Virus record (IMG/VR): IMGVR_UViG_3300005253_000302
Span: 1 to 47,021 of that record
DNA length: 47,021 nucleotides
Strand: one strand, 5' to 3'
Source: a virus
Of the stretch, positions 3,145 through 47,021 are shown piece by piece. Under the pieces are notes generated by a model that was given only the letters and a program-made list of their open reading frames with translations, searched no databases and was not told the DNA's origin. Both the position numbers and the translations under genes were made by a program. Each line of letters opens with the position of its first letter. Position 1 is the first letter of the stretch.

Positions 3145-4253
3145 CTGAGTCTCGCCAGGGGTGGGAGTACGAGATCACCGAAGGTGGTGAGCGTGACGGC
3201 AGCGGCCTGGCGCTCTACGAGGTGCGGCTCTGGACCTCGACCAAACGCAAGCTAGATGGCGATGGGGCGCACGTCATCGACGGTGTGCCCACGGACCTGG
3301 TCAACAACTTCAAGATGCAGATCCGCACAGGGCACCAGCGCGTCGTCACCATGCCCGGGGACCGTGATGAACCCGATGGCTACGTTCGTCACGTTAGCGG
3401 GCTAGCGGTTCCTCAGCGGTTCGATGACGAGGAGCTGGTTGCCTTCCTCACAGCAAACGGCCTGCCGCTCTCCGGCTACACCCCATTCATGTTCGCGAAC
3501 TACGCGGGGGACCTGGAGCCGCTGAACGGCATGTGGCAGCACGAGGAGCACACCGTGCCGCTGCTCGGGCAGGCCGAGGCGAACATCGAGAACTATGTCG
3601 ATGTGGCGATCGAGAAGTCGTGGGACGCGGACCGCCGCGGCACGACGCTCAATCTTCAAGTGGGGGCGTCCGCGGACGACGCCGACGAGAGGGTCAGCGA
3701 CGGGGTGATGGATCTCACCCGTACGACCTTGCGCCACGGCGTGTTCTTGACCTCACAGCACATCGGTTACCGCTTCACCGCAGTGAGCGGTATGAGCGGC
3801 GCCACGGTTAGCGCGGCCACGCTTACCTACCTGCCCACCGCTACTGATGATGCCAGTTTCTTTGGTGACATGTTCGCCCACGATGCAGAGGCTCCGGGCA
3901 CGTTCACGACCACCGGCAGTGACATCACCGACCGTACGCGGACCACTGCCACATCGGAAGCCGACGGCGAGGATTTTGGCAACTGGACGGACAACGTAGA
4001 AGCGACCTTCGAGGGCGACGGCGTGACCACTATCGCTGACATCCTCCAAGAATTGGCCGACAGCTACGACCCCTCGGCGATTGTCCTGATGTATATCCAC
4101 ACCTCCGGCCTTGGGGAACGGATCTGCGACAGCTACGACGGGGCCACGGAGGATGCGCCCAAGCTCGACATCACCCACGACGGAGGCGGGGCAGTCCTCG
4201 CGCCGCGGTCACACATAATCCAGCAGTCAGTAGTTCGTGCGGCGTACCACTAG
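3141..4253 (+). CDS. Tail/fibre protein with DNRLRE-like beta module, 370 aa
   Basis: GTG start overlapping the stop of the mini-ORF by GTGA. Residues about 205-355 show the sequence course of a DNRLRE/carbohydrate-binding-like jelly roll: YRFTAVSGMSGATVSAATLT, then DAEAPGTF, then TRTTATSE, then a helix-like ILQELADSYDP, then APKLDITHDG. The N-terminal 200 residues are unassigned. Such modules occur in secreted surface proteins and phage fibres, so binding to host glycans is a reasonable inference. It is one of several adhesion-type genes in the 1-12 kb run. Confidence 0.6.
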   Translation: MTESRQGWEYEITEGGERDGSGLALYEVRLWTSTKRKLDGDGAHVIDGVPTDLVNNFKMQIRTGHQRVVTMPGDRDEPDGYVRHVSGLAVPQRFDDEELVAFLTANGLPLSGYTPFMFANYAGDLEPLNGMWQHEEHTVPLLGQAEANIENYVDVAIEKSWDADRRGTTLNLQVGASADDADERVSDGVMDLTRTTLRHGVFLTSQHIGYRFTAVSGMSGATVSAATLTYLPTATDDASFFGDMFAHDAEAPGTFTTTGSDITDRTRTTATSEADGEDFGNWTDNVEATFEGDGVTTIADILQELADSYDPSAIVLMYIHTSGLGERICDSYDGATEDAPKLDITHDGGGAVLAPRSHIIQQSVVRAAYH

Positions 4254-4265
4254 GAGAGATGCTTT

Positions 4266-4778
4266 ATCGCCAGGTACAAGATCTACAACGGCCCAGGACC
4301 GACTTCGGCGTCCCAGCTCGCGGTCACGACCGGCACCGCGATCGAGACGATGCTACAGATCCAGATGTCGGCGACGCTGGGCGGGCAAATCGTCGAGTAC
4401 GGCGTCAGCTTCGACGGCGCAGCCGCCGCTGCTGGTATCGAGATCGAGCTACTGGAGTGCGCCGGCGCTGCAACCGTGACGGCGCACGTCACGGCAGGCA
4501 TTCACCGGCTCGACGCGGCAGCAATGCACGGCGGCGATCCCGTCACGAACCTCATTCTTGTGGGGACCACGGCGACCGGGTTCACGGCATCCGCCGAAGG
4601 CACCCTCACGGTGGTGCGGATGTTTGACGCACAGTTCATTCAGCCGACGAATCAGTACGTGCTGCAGTTCCCGCTTGGTGAGCGCCCGTACATGCAGCCG
4701 GGCGCATTCTTTACCCGCGTCCGCGTGAAGGCGGCGGCAGCCGTGAACGCCATCTGCTATGTCGTCGTTGAGGTCTAG
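4266..4778 (+). CDS. Virion-associated protein starting at ATC, 170 aa
   Basis: In this frame the only standard start is ATG 4350, but the 28 codons before it read ARYKIYNGPGPTSASQLAV, which looks like genuine protein and resembles N-termini of small phage structural proteins I know. An AGGAGAG at 4251-4257 sits 7-8 bases before ATC GCC at 4266, ideal ribosome-site spacing. No ATG, GTG or TTG lies between the upstream stop and 4350. The protein is beta-rich, with no Cys cluster and no membrane segment. It lies between fibre-like genes and is probably structural. See the start-codon findings. Confidence 0.6.
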   Translation: MARYKIYNGPGPTSASQLAVTTGTAIETMLQIQMSATLGGQIVEYGVSFDGAAAAAGIEIELLECAGAATVTAHVTAGIHRLDAAAMHGGDPVTNLILVGTTATGFTASAEGTLTVVRMFDAQFIQPTNQYVLQFPLGERPYMQPGAFFTRVRVKAAAAVNAICYVVVEV

Positions 4779-20058: not shown

Positions 20059-20322
20059 ATGGTCAAGGATGAACTGACAGAGCGGGAGAAGCGGGCGGAG
20101 CACGTACTCCGGAGCCTCGACGCAGGGGCTCCGGCGTACGTGCAGCCACGCAAGACTCGCTTCGGCATGGTTCGCCAGCGGAGCGACATCAAGACGTTTC
20201 ACGTGGAGGAGAACTGCTCCGGCTACCCGGATATGCCGGAGGTGACGAACGTCGAGGACGCGCTGGAGCGTGGCTTGGCGCTCTGCGGATCGTGTGTAAT
20301 CAAGATCATGCGTGACCTGTGA
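20059..20322 (+). CDS. Small protein with Ada-like metal-binding pattern, 87 aa
   Basis: ATG start, GGAG upstream. TFHVEENCSGYPDMPEV, then EDALERGLALCGSC resembles the 'FH...C...A...G..(P)C..C' metal site found in Ada-like domains and at the end of some micrococcal-type nucleases. No catalytic residues are apparent, so a DNA- or RNA-binding accessory is likely. GTGA overlap with the methyltransferase gene suggests joint expression. Confidence 0.55.
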   Translation: MVKDELTEREKRAEHVLRSLDAGAPAYVQPRKTRFGMVRQRSDIKTFHVEENCSGYPDMPEVTNVEDALERGLALCGSCVIKIMRDL

Positions 20323-21230
20323 GCGGCTTCGTGCTGTCGCTGTTCCCCGGCATCGGCCTGCTCGACATGGCGTTCGAGGAGGAGGGCTTCACCGTCGTGC
20401 GCGGCCCCGACGTGCTGTGGGGCGGGGACGTGAAGCGCTTCCACCCGCCGGCGGGGAAGTTCGACGGCGTGATCGGCGGGCCACCGTGCCAGGAGTTCAG
20501 CTCGCTCGCGCCGCTGGTGCGCCACAACGGCCACGAGCCGCGCTTCGGCAACCTGATCCCCGAGTACGAGCGATGCGTGTTCGAGGCGCAGCCGCGGTGG
20601 TTCGTGATGGAGAACGTACGCGGCGCTCCGCTGCCGAACGTCGAGGGCTACGACCGCTGGGCGGAGCTGCTGAAGGACTCGGACATCGGCGGTGTGCAGC
20701 CGCGCGTGCGGCGGATCTCGCTGGGGCTGCGCGAGGGCGAGTGGACCTCGATCGCGTCACCGTTCACGCTGGTGGAGTACGCCTCCGCCGAGGAACGTTG
20801 CCCGCGATGCGGGGGGACTCGCGTCGAATGGGATGCCCGCGGGCTATGGTGCCGCGACTGCGAGCACATCTGGCTTCCTCTCGCCCCGACTGAGCGCACG
20901 ATCACGACGAACTCGGCAGGAGGGAGCTTCGGAGATACGCGCCGCGATCCCGATAGCGGCAGACCTGACCGGCGCAAGCGCTCGATCGTAGGCGACGCGA
21001 GGGTCACCCCAATAGGAGCGCGAGTCCGCAAGGACGATGGCGGGGGTGAATTACCGCACATCGGAGCATCTCTGTCCGTTGCCGACGTGCTCGAAGCCCA
21101 GGGCCTCCCCCGCGACTACCTCGACGACGCTCCGTTCACGATGGACGGGAAGCGCAAGGCCATCGGCAACGGCGTACCGCTGCCGATGGGTCGGGCGATC
21201 GCGCGTGCGGTGAAGCGGGTGCTGGCGTGA
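20319..21230 (+). CDS. DNA cytosine-5 methyltransferase with internal zinc ribbon, 303 aa
   Basis: GTG start (GTGA overlap). Transfers a methyl group from S-adenosylmethionine to cytosine C5 in a specific sequence. Motif I LSLFPGIGLLDMAF (6-19), motif IV GGPPCQEFS with catalytic C57, motif VI ENV (98-100), motif VIII QPRVRR (127-132), motif X GNGVPLPMGRAIARA near the C-terminus. Between VIII and X, CPRCGG and CRDC (C161, C164, C178, C181) form a zinc ribbon in the target-recognition region, which I do not associate with standard Dcm enzymes. No cognate endonuclease is nearby, so it is probably a solitary anti-restriction or regulatory methylase. Confidence 0.9.
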   Translation: MSGFVLSLFPGIGLLDMAFEEEGFTVVRGPDVLWGGDVKRFHPPAGKFDGVIGGPPCQEFSSLAPLVRHNGHEPRFGNLIPEYERCVFEAQPRWFVMENVRGAPLPNVEGYDRWAELLKDSDIGGVQPRVRRISLGLREGEWTSIASPFTLVEYASAEERCPRCGGTRVEWDARGLWCRDCEHIWLPLAPTERTITTNSAGGSFGDTRRDPDSGRPDRRKRSIVGDARVTPIGARVRKDDGGGELPHIGASLSVADVLEAQGLPRDYLDDAPFTMDGKRKAIGNGVPLPMGRAIARAVKRVLA

Positions 21231-21634
21231 ACGGCGATCGCGCCGGCCCGCTGTTCTTCCTCCTCGGCCTCATCACTGTGTTCACGATCTGGCTCGCTGT
21301 GGCCGTGCTCACCGAGGACGCGCCACCGACAGCTTCTCCCCAGCCGCAGGGCGCCGCACAGGGTTGGGCGCTTGAGGAGGAGCTGCCGGTAGCCCGGCCT
21401 CGTGCGGGGGGTAGCTCAGTCTGGCAGAGCACCCTTGATCAGGTGGTCGCGGGTTCAAATCCCGTCCCCCCGCATCTCACTGAGCCCGCACGACCGCCGT
21501 TCGTGTGGGACTACCAGCTCGGCCCCGGCCTCCACGGGCCGCCGATCACCCGCGCCGAGGCGCAGCGCCACCTCTACAACGCCTGCCAGGGGCCGGGCTG
21601 CGGGTGGTGGGTTGGCGTGATGGTGGAGATCTGA
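21227..21634 (+). CDS. Membrane-anchored protein reading into an interrupted lytic transglycosylase, 135 aa
   Basis: GTGA overlap with the methyltransferase. Residues 8-29 are a membrane helix (LFFLLGLITVFTIWLAVAVL). Residues 45-83 are encoded across a tRNA-like element (21405-21473) and read like translated tRNA (GGSSVWQS, VAGSNPVPPH). The end, GWWVGVMVEI, then TGA, is continuous in frame with a transglycosylase domain downstream. The true gene may be the membrane part alone or the whole of 21227-21838. Confidence 0.45.
   Translation: MNGDRAGPLFFLLGLITVFTIWLAVAVLTEDAPPTASPQPQGAAQGWALEEELPVARPRAGGSSVWQSTLDQVVAGSNPVPPHLTEPARPPFVWDYQLGPGLHGPPITRAEAQRHLYNACQGPGCGWWVGVMVEI
21405..21473 (+). tRNA. 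tRNA-like element with shortened anticodon arm
   Basis: Seven acceptor pairs (CGGGGGG 21405-21411 with CCCCCCG 21466-21472), T8/A9, D stem GCTC/GAGC with GG in the loop, T arm GCGGG-TTCAAAT-CCCGT. These are all canonical, and C1:G72 recalls tRNA-Pro. Between D and T arms only 18 bases remain (21431-21448) where 22-23 are normal, so the anticodon arm is about five bases short and no confident anticodon can be read. Either a decayed tRNA, an unusual one, or a base-loss error. No CCA encoded. Confidence 0.55.
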
Positions 21635-36634: not shown

Positions 36635-39600
36635 ATGGCGTTCGGCGAGACACGGCGGCATCGTGAGGAGCGGGAGGCGCGACAGAGCGACCTCTACCCC
36701 GAGCTCGAGCTGTCCGGCATCGACGGTGTGTTCGCCGTCGACCGCCTGCGCCGCGAGGAGAGCCGCCCGCTGACGAGCGTCGGCATGGCGGTCGAGGACG
36801 CGATGGTGCGATCCCGCCCGCCGGTGGACCCGGAGGAGGAGCTGGGAGCCCAGCGCGGGTTCTTCCAGCCGCCACCCGACCCGCTGCCCCAGCCACGGGA
36901 GCCGTCTCTGGCGCCGGTTGAGCGGCTGCCGACCCCGCAGCAGCCCCGACCGGCCTTCGAGATTGGCCCCAATCTCGAGCCGCTGAGCATCGAGCGGACG
37001 CGCGAGGAGCTGGCGACGACGCGACCGGGCCTACCGCGTGAAGCTGCACTGGATCTTGATGAACGCATACGTCTTGCTTTCGGTGAGGACGAAGACGTAT
37101 CCCGCTTCGACTTCGGCGACCTGTTCAGCGAACTCGGGATGGCCGAGGCGCGGCTGGAGGAGCTGACTTCTCGCAAGGGTGCGCCACTGAGTCTGTTAGA
37201 GGAGCGTGACACACGGCAGCGCGTGCAGCAGCTTCGTGAAGCTACATCGCTCGCCGGTCCGCTCACCGAGTCTGATCGCGGCGGGCTGGCTCAACTGGTC
37301 GGCATCACGCTCCAGCAGCTCGCCGCGATTCCCGGCGGCGAGCAGGTCTTGCGTCGTCTCACAGTCGAAACCATGGTCGCGACCAGCGATGTGACGAAGG
37401 CGGAGGCGGGGAAGCGTTTCGATGTGATGTGGGAGTCGTGGCCGCGGTGGCTGCAACTCGTGGCGGAAGAGACGTTCGATCCCACCAATGCTCTGCTCGT
37501 GGCCGGCGGGGCCGTGCTGGCACCGCGACTGCTTGCATCATCGAGCCGCACGGCGCGTGTGCTCGGCGAGGTGCTGAAACCCATCAGCAAGGGGCCACTG
37601 GCCTTTCCCAGTGAGGTGGGAGCCGCTGTGGGCTTGCGGGGGGCGTTCGAGGCGTCAGAGGGCGCGCCCCTACCAGTACGCCTTGCCCTCGGTGCCGTAG
37701 GTGCTGTGGCTGGCGTAGGCGCTGTGCGTGGCGCGCCACGGGCTCTGGCGCCAATCCCTGATCTGGCGCAAGGCGTCAGAAGGTACGGCGACGAAGTGCT
37801 TACGACGCTTCGTGGCTCTGGACCGTTGCAGGCAGGTGAGGCTGGGCTTCGGGCTGAGATTGTCCCTGGTGTTCCAGACGCCTTCGCACGCGCGAAGGCT
37901 GCACTCAGGGGGGCACTAGCGGAAGAGAACGCCCTTCGCGAGTCCGGGCAAACGGCGGCGGAGATTACCAGAGAACGCGCCCGTCGTTTTGGCAACTACA
38001 TACCTACATTGCGCAGGATGCGGGCCGCCGGCCTTTCAGAAGAGGACGCCGCCCTAGCTACGACGTTCGAGCGAGGCGTGATGCGTTCGACGTTTGCGGA
38101 TCCGATTCAGATCGACTCTGCCGCCCGTGAGGCAATGTTCGCGGAGCTGGGGAGGCTTCTGGACACTGGGGTCATCGATGTCCCGCGACACCGGACGCTT
38201 CGGGATATTCTCACTCGTGCCTTGGCGGGTACAGGCTTCAACCAGCCAGCGCAAATGAGGATGTTGAGGGAGTTCCTTGGCGACGACATCGCGGAGGCGG
38301 TGCTGGTCCGGTCCTCGGCTAACCAGATGCTCTCCGTTGCTGCGCGCATCGGGCGTGGCGGGCGGAGGGGGCCGGGCGGCGCCACCCTACCGTCTTCGGG
38401 CGGTCCGGGTATCCCCACTGGACCGCGCGGCGTCACCTCAACTGGTCGAGGGCGTGGCGCTACACCCCGTCCCATCGGAGGCGTCCCGACTCCTGTGCCG
38501 CCTGAGCCCGCCCTCGGTGGCGTCGGCGTTCTTGAGCGTGGGCCGATCAGGCGTAGCGGGGGACGCTTGCTGCCGTCCGGTGAAGCGACTGTTCCCGGTG
38601 GCATCACTGATCTACCAGAGGGGCGTGGCGTGCGTGCCCAACCCCGCCCTCTGAGAGTTGATCCAGAACCTGTTGTGGAGCCGGCCCTTACAGGGCTTGG
38701 CGTTTTGGAGCGTGATTTCATCAGGCGCGGCGGCGCGACGCTACCGGGTGGCGGGGGTGTCGATCTGCCGAGTGGGCCGCGTGGTGTTACGTCGACAGGC
38801 ATACGGCGAGGGGCGCAGACCGTTGCGACTAAGCCGTTGCAGCAGGCCGTGGAGGTGGCCGAGAGCCACAACCGCCTGCTGGAGAACATCCTCGACGTCT
38901 GGAACATCCCTCGCAGCCTCAAGTCCTCGTTCGACGTGTCCGCGTGGCTCCGCCAGGGTGGCCTGCTGGGCGCGAAGAACATTGACGCCTGGACGGCGGC
39001 GCTCGGTCCATCGCTGCGAGCGCTGCGTAATCCTGAAGAGGCGCGAATCATCCTCGACCAGATCCAGAACGGTCCCAAGGCACTAATCAGAAACCGTGCA
39101 GGGGTGTTTTTCGCCGAGATCACAGACCCGAACCTACAGGTGCGGCGCCTCGGCGACCGATGGGCAGTCGTCAATCGCGAGACCGACCAGCAAATCGGCC
39201 TGTTCAGGACGAAGGCCGAGGCAGAGGCCCGCCTGCTGCCGAAACTGACTCAGCGCGAGGAACAATTCATCTCGCGCATCGCCTCGAAGATCCCCGGCGT
39301 TGGCGCTTCGGAGCGTTCGTTCGTCGTCTTTCTGAACAAGCTTCGCGCGGACGTGTTCGACAAGTTCGCCGCCGAGCTCTCCGCGCGCAACGCCGAGTGG
39401 TTCGAGTACGAAGAGTTGGCTCGTATGGTCAACGTCTTCACCGGGCGTGGATCGTTGCCGAAGGGGCACGGGGACATCATCAGCCTATTGGGCAACACGT
39501 TCTGGTCTATGCGCCTCATAGTCGCGCGCTTCGAGGCCCCGTTGATGCTGTTCTCCAAGAGCCCACTCGTGCGGCGCGAGGCTGCCTATTCCCTCGGCGC

Positions 39601-41014
39601 CTTCGTCGCCGAACGAATGGCGGTGCTTGGCCTCGGCGCTGCGTTCGGTCTCTGGACCGTCGAGCTCAACCCACGCAGTTCGGACTTAGGCAAGATCAAG
39701 CTTCCAGGCGGCGTACGCATCGACCCCTGGGGCGGCTTCCAGCAAATGGTTGTGTTCGCCAACCGCCTCGCTTCCGGCCAGATCGCGACGACGGGCTCGG
39801 GGAACCTGCGTGACGTGGACCGCTGGGAGTTGGCGTGGAACTTCATTCGCGGCAAGCTCTCACCGTCCGCCGCCACGGCCGTCAACATCAAGGAGGGTGA
39901 GAACATCATCGGCGAGCCGATGACGCCCGCCTCGGTGGTGGGCGACCTCACCATCCCGCTCACCCCGCAGGACTTCTGGGATGGCTACAGGTTCGGAGGC
40001 ATCCCGGGTTCCGCGATCGCAGGCACGGCCGGCGTCATCGGCTTCGGCGCTCAGTCCTTCCAATCGTTCGGCGACCTGCAGGCGGCCGTGGCTGCTGACC
40101 TCTTCCCCGACAAGTCGCCCGATGAGCCACTGAACCGTGAGGAGCGTCGACAGGTCAACGCCGATCCACGGATGCAGGAACGCATCGGCGGCTTCGAGGA
40201 CGACTCCGGCACCCCCGAGCAGCAGCTCTCGTTCGCCTTCGACAACCTCGACCGCGTGAAGACGGATGCCGAGGCGGAGTTGCGCGCGGCGATCGACGCC
40301 GGCGCGACGGCGCTCGTGCTCAAGGATGCCATCAAGCAGCTCAAGGAGACGCGATTCATTGCCGCTGACGCCCTGCTGGGGAGCGACACGCTGCAGGCGG
40401 CGCTGGAGCGAACGGACCAGCCGGTGGAGGACGTGCTGGCGGAGGCGTACTGGAGCATCGACCTCCAGATTCATCCCGAGACGGGCAGCAAGGACTTCGA
40501 GGCACGAGACGAAGAGCGGGTCGCGATCCTGCAGGAGGCGGCAGAGCGCGGCGTCGATCTCAACTACATCGCGGGTTTCGGCGAGGGCACCTATCGCGGC
40601 ACACGCTTCGCTGACGAGCGCGTGCGCGAGATGGTGGAGCAGTACGACACAGATGTGCAGGCAGCGGTCGAGAGCGGGCTCTTCGAGCTGCGCGATCTGG
40701 CGTGGGAGGACATGCAGCGGTCGTTCCCCGCCACGGTCGAGTTCGACTCGATGTTTGACTGGCGCGATGCGGAAATTGCGAAGCTCGTCGCGCAGGAGAT
40801 GCCGCCGACCCGCGCCGAGCGGGCGGTCCAGCAGCATCCCTTCAAAGAGGCGTTTGACGCGAACAAGAACATGCGTGAGCAGCAGTGGGTGATCGCGAAC
40901 ACTCCATCTGGTCTCGCTGCCAAGGCGGATCTCTGGGACTTCTTCACGCCCACGAACGAGGAGCTGGACATCATCGAGAGCTTCCCGCGTCAGCCGGTGG
41001 CGGCTACCCCATGA
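36635..41014 (+). CDS. Giant virion protein, 1459 aa
   Basis: ATG directly after the previous stop. Residues 1-110 are Pro/Glu-rich. Residues about 240-380 contain hydrophobic Gly/Ala stretches (GAVGAVAGVGAVRGAPRAL). Residues 565-735 are Gly/Pro/Thr repeats (GPRGVTSTG twice, GVLER(G/D)(P/F)IRR twice). Residues 740-1120 are a conserved-looking domain with HGDIISLLGNTFWSMRLIVA, then NPRSSDLGKIKLPGGVRIDP and WGGFQQMVVFANRLASGQI, known to me from the large polyvalent proteins of phages. The rest is helical. Probably carried in the virion and ejected with DNA; not a tape measure because of its place before the capsid genes. Inference. Confidence 0.65.
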   Translation: MAFGETRRHREEREARQSDLYPELELSGIDGVFAVDRLRREESRPLTSVGMAVEDAMVRSRPPVDPEEELGAQRGFFQPPPDPLPQPREPSLAPVERLPTPQQPRPAFEIGPNLEPLSIERTREELATTRPGLPREAALDLDERIRLAFGEDEDVSRFDFGDLFSELGMAEARLEELTSRKGAPLSLLEERDTRQRVQQLREATSLAGPLTESDRGGLAQLVGITLQQLAAIPGGEQVLRRLTVETMVATSDVTKAEAGKRFDVMWESWPRWLQLVAEETFDPTNALLVAGGAVLAPRLLASSSRTARVLGEVLKPISKGPLAFPSEVGAAVGLRGAFEASEGAPLPVRLALGAVGAVAGVGAVRGAPRALAPIPDLAQGVRRYGDEVLTTLRGSGPLQAGEAGLRAEIVPGVPDAFARAKAALRGALAEENALRESGQTAAEITRERARRFGNYIPTLRRMRAAGLSEEDAALATTFERGVMRSTFADPIQIDSAAREAMFAELGRLLDTGVIDVPRHRTLRDILTRALAGTGFNQPAQMRMLREFLGDDIAEAVLVRSSANQMLSVAARIGRGGRRGPGGATLPSSGGPGIPTGPRGVTSTGRGRGATPRPIGGVPTPVPPEPALGGVGVLERGPIRRSGGRLLPSGEATVPGGITDLPEGRGVRAQPRPLRVDPEPVVEPALTGLGVLERDFIRRGGATLPGGGGVDLPSGPRGVTSTGIRRGAQTVATKPLQQAVEVAESHNRLLENILDVWNIPRSLKSSFDVSAWLRQGGLLGAKNIDAWTAALGPSLRALRNPEEARIILDQIQNGPKALIRNRAGVFFAEITDPNLQVRRLGDRWAVVNRETDQQIGLFRTKAEAEARLLPKLTQREEQFISRIASKIPGVGASERSFVVFLNKLRADVFDKFAAELSARNAEWFEYEELARMVNVFTGRGSLPKGHGDIISLLGNTFWSMRLIVARFEAPLMLFSKSPLVRREAAYSLGAFVAERMAVLGLGAAFGLWTVELNPRSSDLGKIKLPGGVRIDPWGGFQQMVVFANRLASGQIATTGSGNLRDVDRWELAWNFIRGKLSPSAATAVNIKEGENIIGEPMTPASVVGDLTIPLTPQDFWDGYRFGGIPGSAIAGTAGVIGFGAQSFQSFGDLQAAVAADLFPDKSPDEPLNREERRQVNADPRMQERIGGFEDDSGTPEQQLSFAFDNLDRVKTDAEAELRAAIDAGATALVLKDAIKQLKETRFIAADALLGSDTLQAALERTDQPVEDVLAEAYWSIDLQIHPETGSKDFEARDEERVAILQEAAERGVDLNYIAGFGEGTYRGTRFADERVREMVEQYDTDVQAAVESGLFELRDLAWEDMQRSFPATVEFDSMFDWRDAEIAKLVAQEMPPTRAERAVQQHPFKEAFDANKNMREQQWVIANTPSGLAAKADLWDFFTPTNEELDIIESFPRQPVAATP

Positions 41015-41372: not shown

Positions 41373-42242
41373 GTGCCAGACGACCCGACGACTCCGACCG
41401 AGGCATCCGCCCCGGCGGCCGAGCAGACCCAGGCGACAGCGCCAGAGCCGGAGGCGTCCACAGCGTCGCCGCCGGCTGATGGTGGCGGCGATGGCGAGCA
41501 GGTCTCCGCGCAGGCGCCATCTGAAGAGGCAGGCTCGACGACACCACCGGAAACGGACCCTCCTGGAGGTGAGCCGGAAACCCCGGCAGAGCCCTCCACG
41601 CTCGCTGAATTCGCTGAACGGAACGAGTGGGCGGCGGAAGCGCTGGCTACCCGTGACGCGGAGCGTGAGAACGCAGGCGCGCAACGGCGCGAGGCATCTC
41701 TACGCCGTGAGGCAGGCAGCCGCGAGCAGACGGCTCAGAACACTGCACGCCTACTGACGGCGTGGGATGAGTTGGAGCCGGATGAGCGGGCTAAGAGCGC
41801 CGGGTGGACCTACGACCTCGCCACCGCCAACGCGGCGGTCGAGGCAACGAAGACCCTCGGCGAATCGGTGCGTCAGATTTACGACGTCCCCGCTGATGTC
41901 GTGGAAAAGGCGCTGAGTTTTCGTGAGGCGGAGACCCCCGACTGGGGCGGCTACACGAAGACGCTGATCGATGGCGCGGTGGCGACTGGAATCGCTGCGG
42001 CGTCTATCTCTGACGTGCCCGAGGGCTCGAAGCTGCATGGCGAGATCAAGGCCGAGGTGCAACACCTGCTGGCCGGCGAGATCTCAGCGCGCAAGCTCGA
42101 AGCGATGCCGAAGGGCGAAGCGCCCCCGGCCACGCCAGCGAGCGGCGGTGCCCCGAACGGGCGCAAAAACATGACCGATTACAAGACCCCGGGCGACTTG
42201 CTGGACGCTGCTGTGAGCGGCGAGTTCGCGGCGTCGCCGTAA
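41373..42242 (+). CDS. Putative scaffolding protein, 289 aa
   Basis: GTG 41373 with GGAGGG six bases before. The first 95 residues are Pro/Glu/Ala/Thr-rich and disordered (MPDDPTTPTEASAPAAEQTQ). Residues 95-170 are charged helix (LATRDAERENAGAQRREASL). Residues 170-289 are helical, ending KNMTDYKTPGDLLDAAVSGE. Acidic, coiled and immediately upstream of the capsid gene, as scaffolds are. It would guide capsid assembly and leave or be digested. No sequence match claimed. Confidence 0.65.
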   Translation: MPDDPTTPTEASAPAAEQTQATAPEPEASTASPPADGGGDGEQVSAQAPSEEAGSTTPPETDPPGGEPETPAEPSTLAEFAERNEWAAEALATRDAERENAGAQRREASLRREAGSREQTAQNTARLLTAWDELEPDERAKSAGWTYDLATANAAVEATKTLGESVRQIYDVPADVVEKALSFREAETPDWGGYTKTLIDGAVATGIAAASISDVPEGSKLHGEIKAEVQHLLAGEISARKLEAMPKGEAPPATPASGGAPNGRKNMTDYKTPGDLLDAAVSGEFAASP

Positions 42243-42257
42243 CCGAGGAGCACTCCA

Positions 42258-43229
42258 ATCGCCGACACTCTGTTGACTATCGCTGAGGCGGGAAAGCAGA
42301 CCGAGCCGACCACCTCGCAGGCGATGACCACTGCACTGCAAGAGATGCTGGCGCAGGAGGAGCCCCTTCTGGACCGCCTGCACTGGCACAAGATTCCAGC
42401 CGGGTCGAACAGTTACCGCTACCTCCAGCCGTCGCAGGCGCCGACGCCGAGCTTCCGCGCGATCAATGCTGCGTGGGATGCGACGCACGGCGTGTGGATT
42501 CCGAAGCAGGAATCCGTGGCGATCCTGGGTGGTGAGCTCGAGATCGACGTTGCCATCCTCGACATGTACGGCGGGCAGCTCTCGATGGGGATGCGTGCTC
42601 GCGAGCTGAAGGCGTGGACCATCGCCATCAAGGACAAGTGGCTCCAGACCTTCTTCGAGGGTGACGTCGGTGTCGATCCTGCGGCCTTCGAGGGGCTGCG
42701 AACCCGCGTGGCCGGCTCGGGCATGGACTTCGACATGTCGAGTGGCACGGACCGCGCAGCGCTGACGCTGGCGAAGCTGGACGAGGTGATCGAGGCCGTG
42801 CTGGGTGGGGTGGAGCGCAAGTCCATCGCGACGAACCAGTGGCTGCGGCGCAAGATCAACGCCCTCATCCGCGAGTCCAGCCAGGCGCAGGAAACGGTGG
42901 ACACCGGTTTCGGTCGCATCATGCCGTCCTACGGTGGCGTTCCTCTGATCGTCATTCAGAAGGAAAGCGACATGTCCACGATCCTCGACTTCGACGAGGA
43001 TCCGGGCGACGGCGGCGACGACACCGCGTCGATGTACTGCATTCGCTTCGCCAACGGCGAGGAGCCGGGCGTGTTCGGCCTGATGGGGAACAACGGCGGC
43101 TGGGAGGCCAAGGCGTTCGGGGAGCAGGAGAGCGTTCCGAGAAACCTCGACCGCTTCTCGGCCTACGTCGGGCTGGCTGCGCCACACCCCCGCGCGTTCG
43201 CGCGGCTGCATTCGGTCGGGAAGATATGA
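42258..43229 (+). CDS. Major capsid protein, starts at ATC, 323 aa
   Basis: Start: GAGGAG (42245-42250) sits seven bases before ATC GCC at 42258. Between the TAA at 42240 and TTG 42273 no ATG, GTG or TTG exists, and TTG 42273 is too far from the site. The product would begin (M)ADTLLTIAEAGKQTEPTTS. HK97-type capsid traits: PLLDRLHWHKIPAGSNSYRY, an E-loop-like PSFRAINAAWDATHGVWIPK, the spine region LKAWTIAIKDKWLQTFFEGD and a beta-rich A-domain end (GGVPLIVIQKE). Position after portal and scaffold agrees. Shell of the head. Confidence 0.75.
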   Translation: MADTLLTIAEAGKQTEPTTSQAMTTALQEMLAQEEPLLDRLHWHKIPAGSNSYRYLQPSQAPTPSFRAINAAWDATHGVWIPKQESVAILGGELEIDVAILDMYGGQLSMGMRARELKAWTIAIKDKWLQTFFEGDVGVDPAAFEGLRTRVAGSGMDFDMSSGTDRAALTLAKLDEVIEAVLGGVERKSIATNQWLRRKINALIRESSQAQETVDTGFGRIMPSYGGVPLIVIQKESDMSTILDFDEDPGDGGDDTASMYCIRFANGEEPGVFGLMGNNGGWEAKAFGEQESVPRNLDRFSAYVGLAAPHPRAFARLHSVGKI

Positions 43230-45986: not shown

Positions 45987-47021
45987 ATGTCGACCACTTT
46001 CCCGACCACCGCTGAGACGCGCGACGACGCGCCCGACGTCCCGAACGTCCCGAACCTCGGCGGCGTGCGCGACCTTGAGACGTGGATCAACTGGATCACC
46101 GATGCGGTGATCGCGCTTCAGGCGAAGGTCGGCGCCGACTCGTCGGCTGTGGCTACCTCGCTCGACAATCTCGTGGCCGATATGACCCCCAAGTTCACCC
46201 GCTTCGTAGCGAGCGGGGCCTGGACGAAAAAGACTGGCTGCACGATCGTCATCGTCGAGTGCATGGGCGGAGGCGGAGGAGGAGGAGGCGGCGAGGGACG
46301 GGCCAGCGGTGTCCTCCGCATCGGGGGCGGCGCTGGCGGCGCTGGTGGCCGCGGCAAGGTCGTTTACGACGCCGCACAGCTCGGCGGGACAGAGACCATC
46401 ACTATCGCCGCCGCTTCGGCGGGTGGGGCGGGCGGCGCGACTGCTGACGGTAGCAATGGAGCGGTCGGCGGGAACGTCACGTTTGGCTCCACGCAGACCG
46501 GGTGGGGCGGTGGCGGGGGCGTCGGCGGGACAGGCACTGATGCCGGCGGGGGTGGCGGTGGCGGTACTGCCAGCGCCGGCAGCGGCATCACGGGTGGTAA
46601 CCCGGCTGGCATGACCGGCGTCAACGCTTCTGGCGGCGCGGGGCCTGACGGCAGCAACGACACAGACGGTGGGGCCGGCGAGTGGGGCGGCGGCGCCGGT
46701 GGCGCCGCCAAAGCAAGCTCCACAGCCACCTCGCTCGCAGGTGGCAGCTCAATGTTTTCGGGCGGAGGCGGCGGAGGTGGCGGAGGCGTAGCTGCTAACG
46801 ACACAGAGCGCGCAGGTGGCGCGGGTGGAGCCTCCAAGAGCTACGCGGCCGGCGGCGGCGGTGCGGGTGGTGCTGCCGGCAGCAGCAATGCTGGCACGGC
46901 TGGGACCGCCGGCACAGACGACTACGGCGGCAGCGGTGGTGGCGGTGGGGGCGGGGCCGACGGGGCTACTGGCGGGGTTGGGGGGGTGGGGGGGGCCCCC
47001 CCCGGGGCGTGGGGGGGGGGG
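45987..47021 (+). CDS. Glycine-rich tail fibre protein, N-terminal part (runs off window)
   Basis: ATG with GGAGGCGGG just upstream. Residues 1-65 form a helical anchor (DLETWINWITDAVIALQAKV), then FTRFVASGAWTKKTGCTIVI, the strand pair that opens glycine-rich phage tail domains, then more than 250 residues of Gly/Ala/Ser repeats with polyglycine II character. Open to the last base; joins in frame with 1-201, giving about 411 codons if closed directly. Homopolymer G and C runs in the last 40 bases are suspect. Likely receptor-binding tip. Confidence 0.75.
   Translation, partial: MSTTFPTTAETRDDAPDVPNVPNLGGVRDLETWINWITDAVIALQAKVGADSSAVATSLDNLVADMTPKFTRFVASGAWTKKTGCTIVIVECMGGGGGGGGGEGRASGVLRIGGGAGGAGGRGKVVYDAAQLGGTETITIAAASAGGAGGATADGSNGAVGGNVTFGSTQTGWGGGGGVGGTGTDAGGGGGGGTASAGSGITGGNPAGMTGVNASGGAGPDGSNDTDGGAGEWGGGAGGAAKASSTATSLAGGSSMFSGGGGGGGGGVAANDTERAGGAGGASKSYAAGGGGAGGAAGSSNAGTAGTAGTDDYGGSGGGGGGGADGATGGVGGVGGAPPGAWGGG

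Follow-up and report, generated by a model that had tools for sequence, protein, structure and literature searches.

Candidate AUC translation starts in the major capsid gene and a second gene of an uncultured virus

Two unrelated genes of an uncultured virus carry ATC at positions where ATG stands in their relatives, a sign that the phage may truly begin some of its proteins at ATC. We put the probability that the major capsid gene and a second gene at position 4266 (gene 4266) both begin translation at AUC at roughly two in three, and judge genuine AUC initiation of the capsid gene to be about as probable. ATC starts as such are already known, for example in infC of Streptomyces. The reading draws on the sequences themselves, on where each ATC falls relative to the starts of homologous genes, on the ribosome sites and on the predicted accessibility of the start regions.

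The capsid gene and its start region

The window, that is, the whole stretch of DNA analysed (47,021 nt), had been described in an earlier note as encoding a major capsid protein, an identification that database and structure comparisons uphold. Residues 4-320 of the product align with PHROG 212, 'major head protein' (E=1.6e-44), Pfam PF20911 GP7 is matched at 36.5 bits (cut-off 27), and a profile search with 62 sequences (window and relatives) matches the solved capsid chains 8cjz, 3j4u and 3j40. A structure model from the same 62-sequence alignment (mean pLDDT 87.9) has a predicted HK97-type fold. Among the 50 Foldseek matches listed (E=9e-14 to 1e-8), family 2 encapsulins rank at the top and phage capsids, including HK97, come next. 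Since the window spans the complete 47021-base record of an uncultured virus, and a terminase gene lies upstream of this gene, a phage capsid is the natural reading. As an observation in its own right, the model of the 42258-43229 (+) product stands nearer to family 2 encapsulins than to any phage capsid among those 50 matches. The features of this region are as follows.

41373..42242, + strand: upstream gene with a GTG start behind GGAGG (start-site census)
42240..42242, + strand: TAA that ends the upstream gene, in the capsid frame (sequence)
42245..42250, + strand: Shine-Dalgarno GAGGAG of the capsid gene (sequence, start-site census)
42258..42260, + strand: proposed ATC start codon of the capsid gene, 7 nt past GAGGAG, aligned with the start methionine in 20/77 distinct relatives
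42270..42275, + strand: rival in-frame starts CTG 42270 and TTG 42273, neither with a ribosome site of its own
42258..43229, + strand: gene of the major capsid protein, 323 aa plus stop when read from ATC (PHROG 212, PF20911, fold)

No PHROG or Pfam family matches the gene directly before the capsid gene, and hits elsewhere were weak and at chance level; by position alone, its product is probably a scaffolding protein. Farther upstream, before the capsid block, lies a 1459-aa ORF (36635-41014, +) without a PHROG or Pfam match.

The interval from the TAA at 42240-42242 up to TTG 42273 contains no ATG, GTG, TTG, ATT or ATA, whichever frame is read. The near-starts in this interval are ATC 42258, CTG 42270 and TTG 42273, each in the capsid frame and lying 7, 19 and 22 nt, respectively, past GAGGAG; of the three, ATC 42258 alone is suitably spaced from the region's only Shine-Dalgarno. 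The bases and distances that the earlier note had given (TAA, GAGGAG, 7 nt, ATC, and TTG 42273 at 22 nt) are all exact, and its statement that no ATG, GTG or TTG precedes TTG 42273 is borne out in every frame, the in-frame CTG 42270 being a near-start that it had left unweighed. Read from ATC 42258, the predicted first peptide of the capsid protein is ADTLLTIAEAGK. The coding score for the capsid frame peaks with the start at 42258, under a scoring model partly trained on that same frame.

Start positions in relatives of the capsid protein

The relatives are approximately 29-35% identical to the capsid protein and vary in the length of their N-termini. None above about 35% identity appeared in IMG/VR (best 80 of 482 confirmed relatives), two scans of genome contigs gave no closer ones, and the 108 phage records that match the protein all do so at <60% identity (27-32% among the matches listed). 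The best 80 were kept. In all, 96 related loci were tried, 94 of which gave a start: 92 ATG, 1 GTG, 1 TTG and 0 ATC. At 93 loci the start was set by script (91 ATG, 1 GTG, 1 TTG); one further locus, L074, was missed by the local search and its ATG was placed by eye, at the CTG 42270 position, while L006 and L068 were left out as the 5' part of the gene is absent. A ribosome site lies 4-11 nt before the start in 90/93 relatives, a figure that arises partly by construction because the script preferred starts with such a site.

Because three contigs occur twice among the loci, distinct proteins give the better count. The 77 distinct aligned relatives start at residue 4 of the window protein (ACT) in 54 cases, at residue 1 (ATC) in 20 and at residue 5 (CTG 42270) in 3, the last with products such as MLTLHEAAK and MITLLEAAK, and none starts at residue 6 (TTG 42273). 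Alignment to homologous capsid N-termini, a check that had been proposed along with the ATC start, thus places the codon at the start position of a 'long' class of relatives. The proposed start gains support as the sole codon at ribosome-site distance and as the ATG position of one class of relatives.

A second gene beginning with ATC

Gene 4266 surfaced in the start-site census of the window as a further gene that lacks a usable canonical start. Its features are listed below.

4252..4256, + strand: Shine-Dalgarno AGGAG of gene 4266, 9 nt before ATC, overlapping TAG 4251-4253, with which the upstream gene ends in frame
4259..4261, + strand: out-of-frame ATG, 2 nt past AGGAG, opening a 122-aa frame that does not resemble coding sequence
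4266..4778, + strand: second ATC-start gene, 170 aa plus stop, with the family start MARYKIYN (four relatives with ATG there)

After the overlapping TAG and AGGAG, the 5' end reads AGATGCTTT and then ATC GCC AGG TAC AAG ATC TAC AAC. A first motif search for relatives returned chance hits only, and L088 was a chance hit too; a second pattern (5 loci, 3 relatives) and a relative search yielded four relatives in IMG/VR, with 76% (L098), 70% (L099), 56% (L101) and 52% (L100) identity, and none in 50,697 phage records. All four carry ATG GCA precisely where the window has ATC GCC, and residues 2-8 (ARYKIYN) are identical in the window gene and every one of them. The next in-frame canonical start is ATG 4350, the use of which would drop 28 residues, including the ARYKIYN block. 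Relative to its two nearest relatives, gene 4266 differs at third positions in 71% and 82% of codons and at first and second positions in 11-25%, and this concentration of differences at third codon positions indicates that the gene is under selection. The family is one of small phage proteins, and its window member matches nothing in PHROG or Pfam. Scanning for members that start with ATC gave 8 loci and 0 relatives.

ATC codons and start sites across the window

The combination of AGGAG with ATC 5-10 nt downstream occurs at 9/97 plus-strand sites, the same number as for ATG, and is no commoner than chance, so the motif alone proves nothing; the weight of the case lies in homology and in the second gene (4266-4778). 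Among 30 starts set by hand in the window, 21 are ATG, 7 GTG and 2 ATC. When 41 window proteins were compared with the collected loci, only two matched beyond the two ATC genes, at 26-29% identity and without the N-terminus. In a ranking of 31 starts by predicted RNA structure, the two ATC sites are the 4th and 7th most open. The ribosome sites of both genes consist of the AGGAG core only (-5.7 kcal/mol), and stronger Shine-Dalgarno pairing (-8.7 to -10.7) occurs at genes 12254, 14037, 34057, 41373 and 45987.

Among genes with alanine as the second residue, the two with GCC (4266 and 42258) have ATC and the six with GCA, GCG or GCT (4785, 7066, 10688, 18768, 36635 and 44484) have ATG, a pairing from which the small numbers allow nothing firm to be drawn.

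Alternative explanations

A sequence artefact, in which the consensus is wrong or reflects a minority variant at 42260 and 4268 and the population has ATG, is unlikely. Such an artefact would fit an uncultured virus record, relatives of both genes that all have canonical starts, and the ATCGCC context shared by the two sites. However, it needs two separate errors, each in a start codon and each producing ATC, although the contig's long frames (for example, the one of 1459 aa) are intact, and a single chance base error is improbable because gene 4266 has its ATC at the exact ATG position of its relatives. The contig also holds 25 intact ATGGCC (11 on the plus and 14 on the minus strand), on the plus strand also after A (27283) and T (29469), which makes a base-call fault tied to the motif unlikely. 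A related candidate, motif or restriction avoidance turning ATGGCC into ATCGCC, was rejected, with GGCC occurring 369 times and ATGGCC 25 times over both strands.

We consider it improbable that the capsid protein starts at CTG 42270 or TTG 42273, with ATC 42258 as an untranslated triplet. Elsewhere, both CTG and TTG serve as accepted starts, an ATC behind AGGAG arises by chance, and the three distinct relatives beginning at the CTG 42270 position, together with L074, would agree with such a start. Neither codon has a Shine-Dalgarno of its own, however, and their 19 and 22 nt from the sole site present compare with 4-11 nt in nearly all relatives, none of the distinct ones using the TTG position. 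A downstream start would furthermore leave gene 4266 unexplained, as no comparable start exists there.

Loss mutations in a defective or decaying phage or prophage, leaving the capsid gene and gene 4266 poorly expressed, are very improbable. Two ATG-to-ATC changes, both in genes of the structural region, would be in keeping with decay, as would the weakness of AUC where it was measured (PMC4633059). Against this, both frames are full length, both ribosome sites are kept, and gene 4266 shows strong constraint in its codon-position differences.

For gene 4266 only, ribosomes might begin at ATG 4259, out of frame, and reach the main frame by a +1 shift at CTT T, but this is hardly credible: CTT T does follow that ATG, a run resembling the prfB +1 shift site, but ATG 4259 lies just 2 nt past AGGAG, the relatives begin directly with ATG at the ATC position, and no frame of the capsid start region offers an ATG. 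Readthrough of the upstream stop, suggested by its lying in the capsid frame, has against it that the relatives carry their own ATG.

How AUC initiation might work

If both genes do begin at AUC, the ordinary initiator tRNA would most likely read the codon as formyl-methionine with the third codon base mismatched, the methionine itself being presumed. IF3 normally rejects starts with a third-base mismatch. Each putative AUC start stands behind an ordinary Shine-Dalgarno just past the stop of the preceding gene, and as this site lies directly behind the stop, ribosomes finishing the upstream gene can restart a few bases on. The relative openness of both start regions in predicted RNA structure may further aid initiation. 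We infer that AUC is used in the cell and that coupling or a permissive host (for example, one with weak IF3 proofreading) would give a sufficient yield; it is possible that enough capsid protein is obtained through a permissive host, through coupling or through timing by way of IF3. It is doubtful that the two starts form an AUC programme, in which structural genes would be held low under IF3 proofreading and raised once infection or a phage factor relaxes initiation; such a programme would mean that shell production is timed by the start codon.

Several observations weigh against AUC initiation. No relative recovered in either family has an ATC start, AUC was weak in a mycobacterial selection (PMC4633059), the Shine-Dalgarno sites are not strengthened, AGGAG precedes ATC in the window as often as it precedes ATG, the capsid relatives are distant with N-termini of varying length, and gene 4266 has the out-of-frame ATG 4259. 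In most virions the main shell protein outnumbers all others, and a start codon that performs poorly in model bacteria is least expected in its gene. If AUC initiation is real, either the host uses AUC far better than mycobacteria or Escherichia coli, or upstream coupling leaves the choice of codon with almost no effect. A gene finder that accepts only ATG, GTG and TTG would then misplace or lose phage starts, at a cost here of five capsid residues and the 28 conserved residues of gene 4266.

Comparison with known noncanonical starts

The published cases are given here as the cited reports describe them. The gene for IF3, infC, starts with ATT in E. coli and with ATC in Streptomyces (PMC5472188), the latter being likewise a natural ATC behind a ribosome site in a bacterium (PMC5472188). 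infC is a self-regulated cellular gene, whereas the candidates in the window are the shell protein gene of a phage and another of its genes. Streptomyces sigR has an IF3-repressed GTC start, established by mutation and N-terminal sequencing (PMC5472188), and shares with the window genes the third-base C in place of G. It differs in that its weak start keeps the product low, whereas capsid protein is normally needed in bulk, and in that its start is experimentally proven, whereas the ATC starts proposed here derive from comparison of sequences. A trait of the infC and sigR type is found in both window genes: neither has a canonical in-frame start suitably spaced from its ribosome site, and in each case there are relatives whose start falls on the codon concerned.

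Among phages, orf28 of Streptococcus thermophilus phage TP-J34 has a predicted AUU start for which re-sequencing excluded an error (PMC3952083). It is also a phage gene with a near-cognate ATH start, although the codon is AUU rather than AUC and the case is a single, non-capsid gene in a region amplified with terS-named primers (PMC3952083). Together, Streptomyces infC (ATC) and TP-J34 orf28 (AUU) indicate, as described in these sources, that starts of this kind exist in nature. ORF35 of Ralstonia phage RsoM1USA is likewise an annotated phage ORF with an NTC start, but this is GTC, in a single gene and given as an annotation in that report (PMC6389784). A literature search of partial coverage listed no case of a phage capsid gene that starts at ATC.

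In Staphylococcus aureus, AUU and AUA starts have been mapped that give a lower yield and have extended Shine-Dalgarno motifs (PMC13009471); that extended pattern, as the source describes it, is absent from both window ATC genes, which have plain AGGAG. In a selection in mycobacteria, ATC behind a Shine-Dalgarno persisted at just 0.2% (PMC4633059). An in vitro survey of initiator tRNA reports that codon bases 1 and 2 are read strictly and the third more tolerantly, and that more IF3 works against weak pairing at the third base (PMC10158994).

A tRNA-like element and other features of the window

The window contains a tRNA-like element at 21405-21473 (+), which matches the Rfam tRNA model at 46.1 bits and was missed by ARAGORN, a program that found no tRNA in the window. 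Its acceptor stem consists entirely of G-C pairs, its D and T arms are normal, and no CCA is encoded; its anticodon arm is about 5 nt short, with the loop CUUGAUCA containing GAU, which is able to pair with AUC. Initiator tRNAs are marked by the lack of a 1:72 pair, an anticodon stem with three G-C pairs and a complete anticodon arm. By sequence and alignments, C1 of the element pairs with G72 and C11 with G24, giving a D stem of elongator type. A role as an AUC initiator tRNA was rejected on account of the paired acceptor end, the elongator-type D stem and the short anticodon arm. An 18-mer from the anticodon arm is absent from IMG/VR.

Comparisons made with the window gave no clear clue to the host of the phage. 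Upstream of the element, 20319-21230 (+) encodes a C5-cytosine DNA methyltransferase (PF00145) whose top match in a plasmid collection, at 41%, is an unannotated stretch of Methylorubrum extorquens AM1. At the far end of the window, a glycine-rich ORF (45987-47021, +) runs past the end of the contig and has a weak match to PHROG 863, tail fibre assembly (E=3.5e-9).
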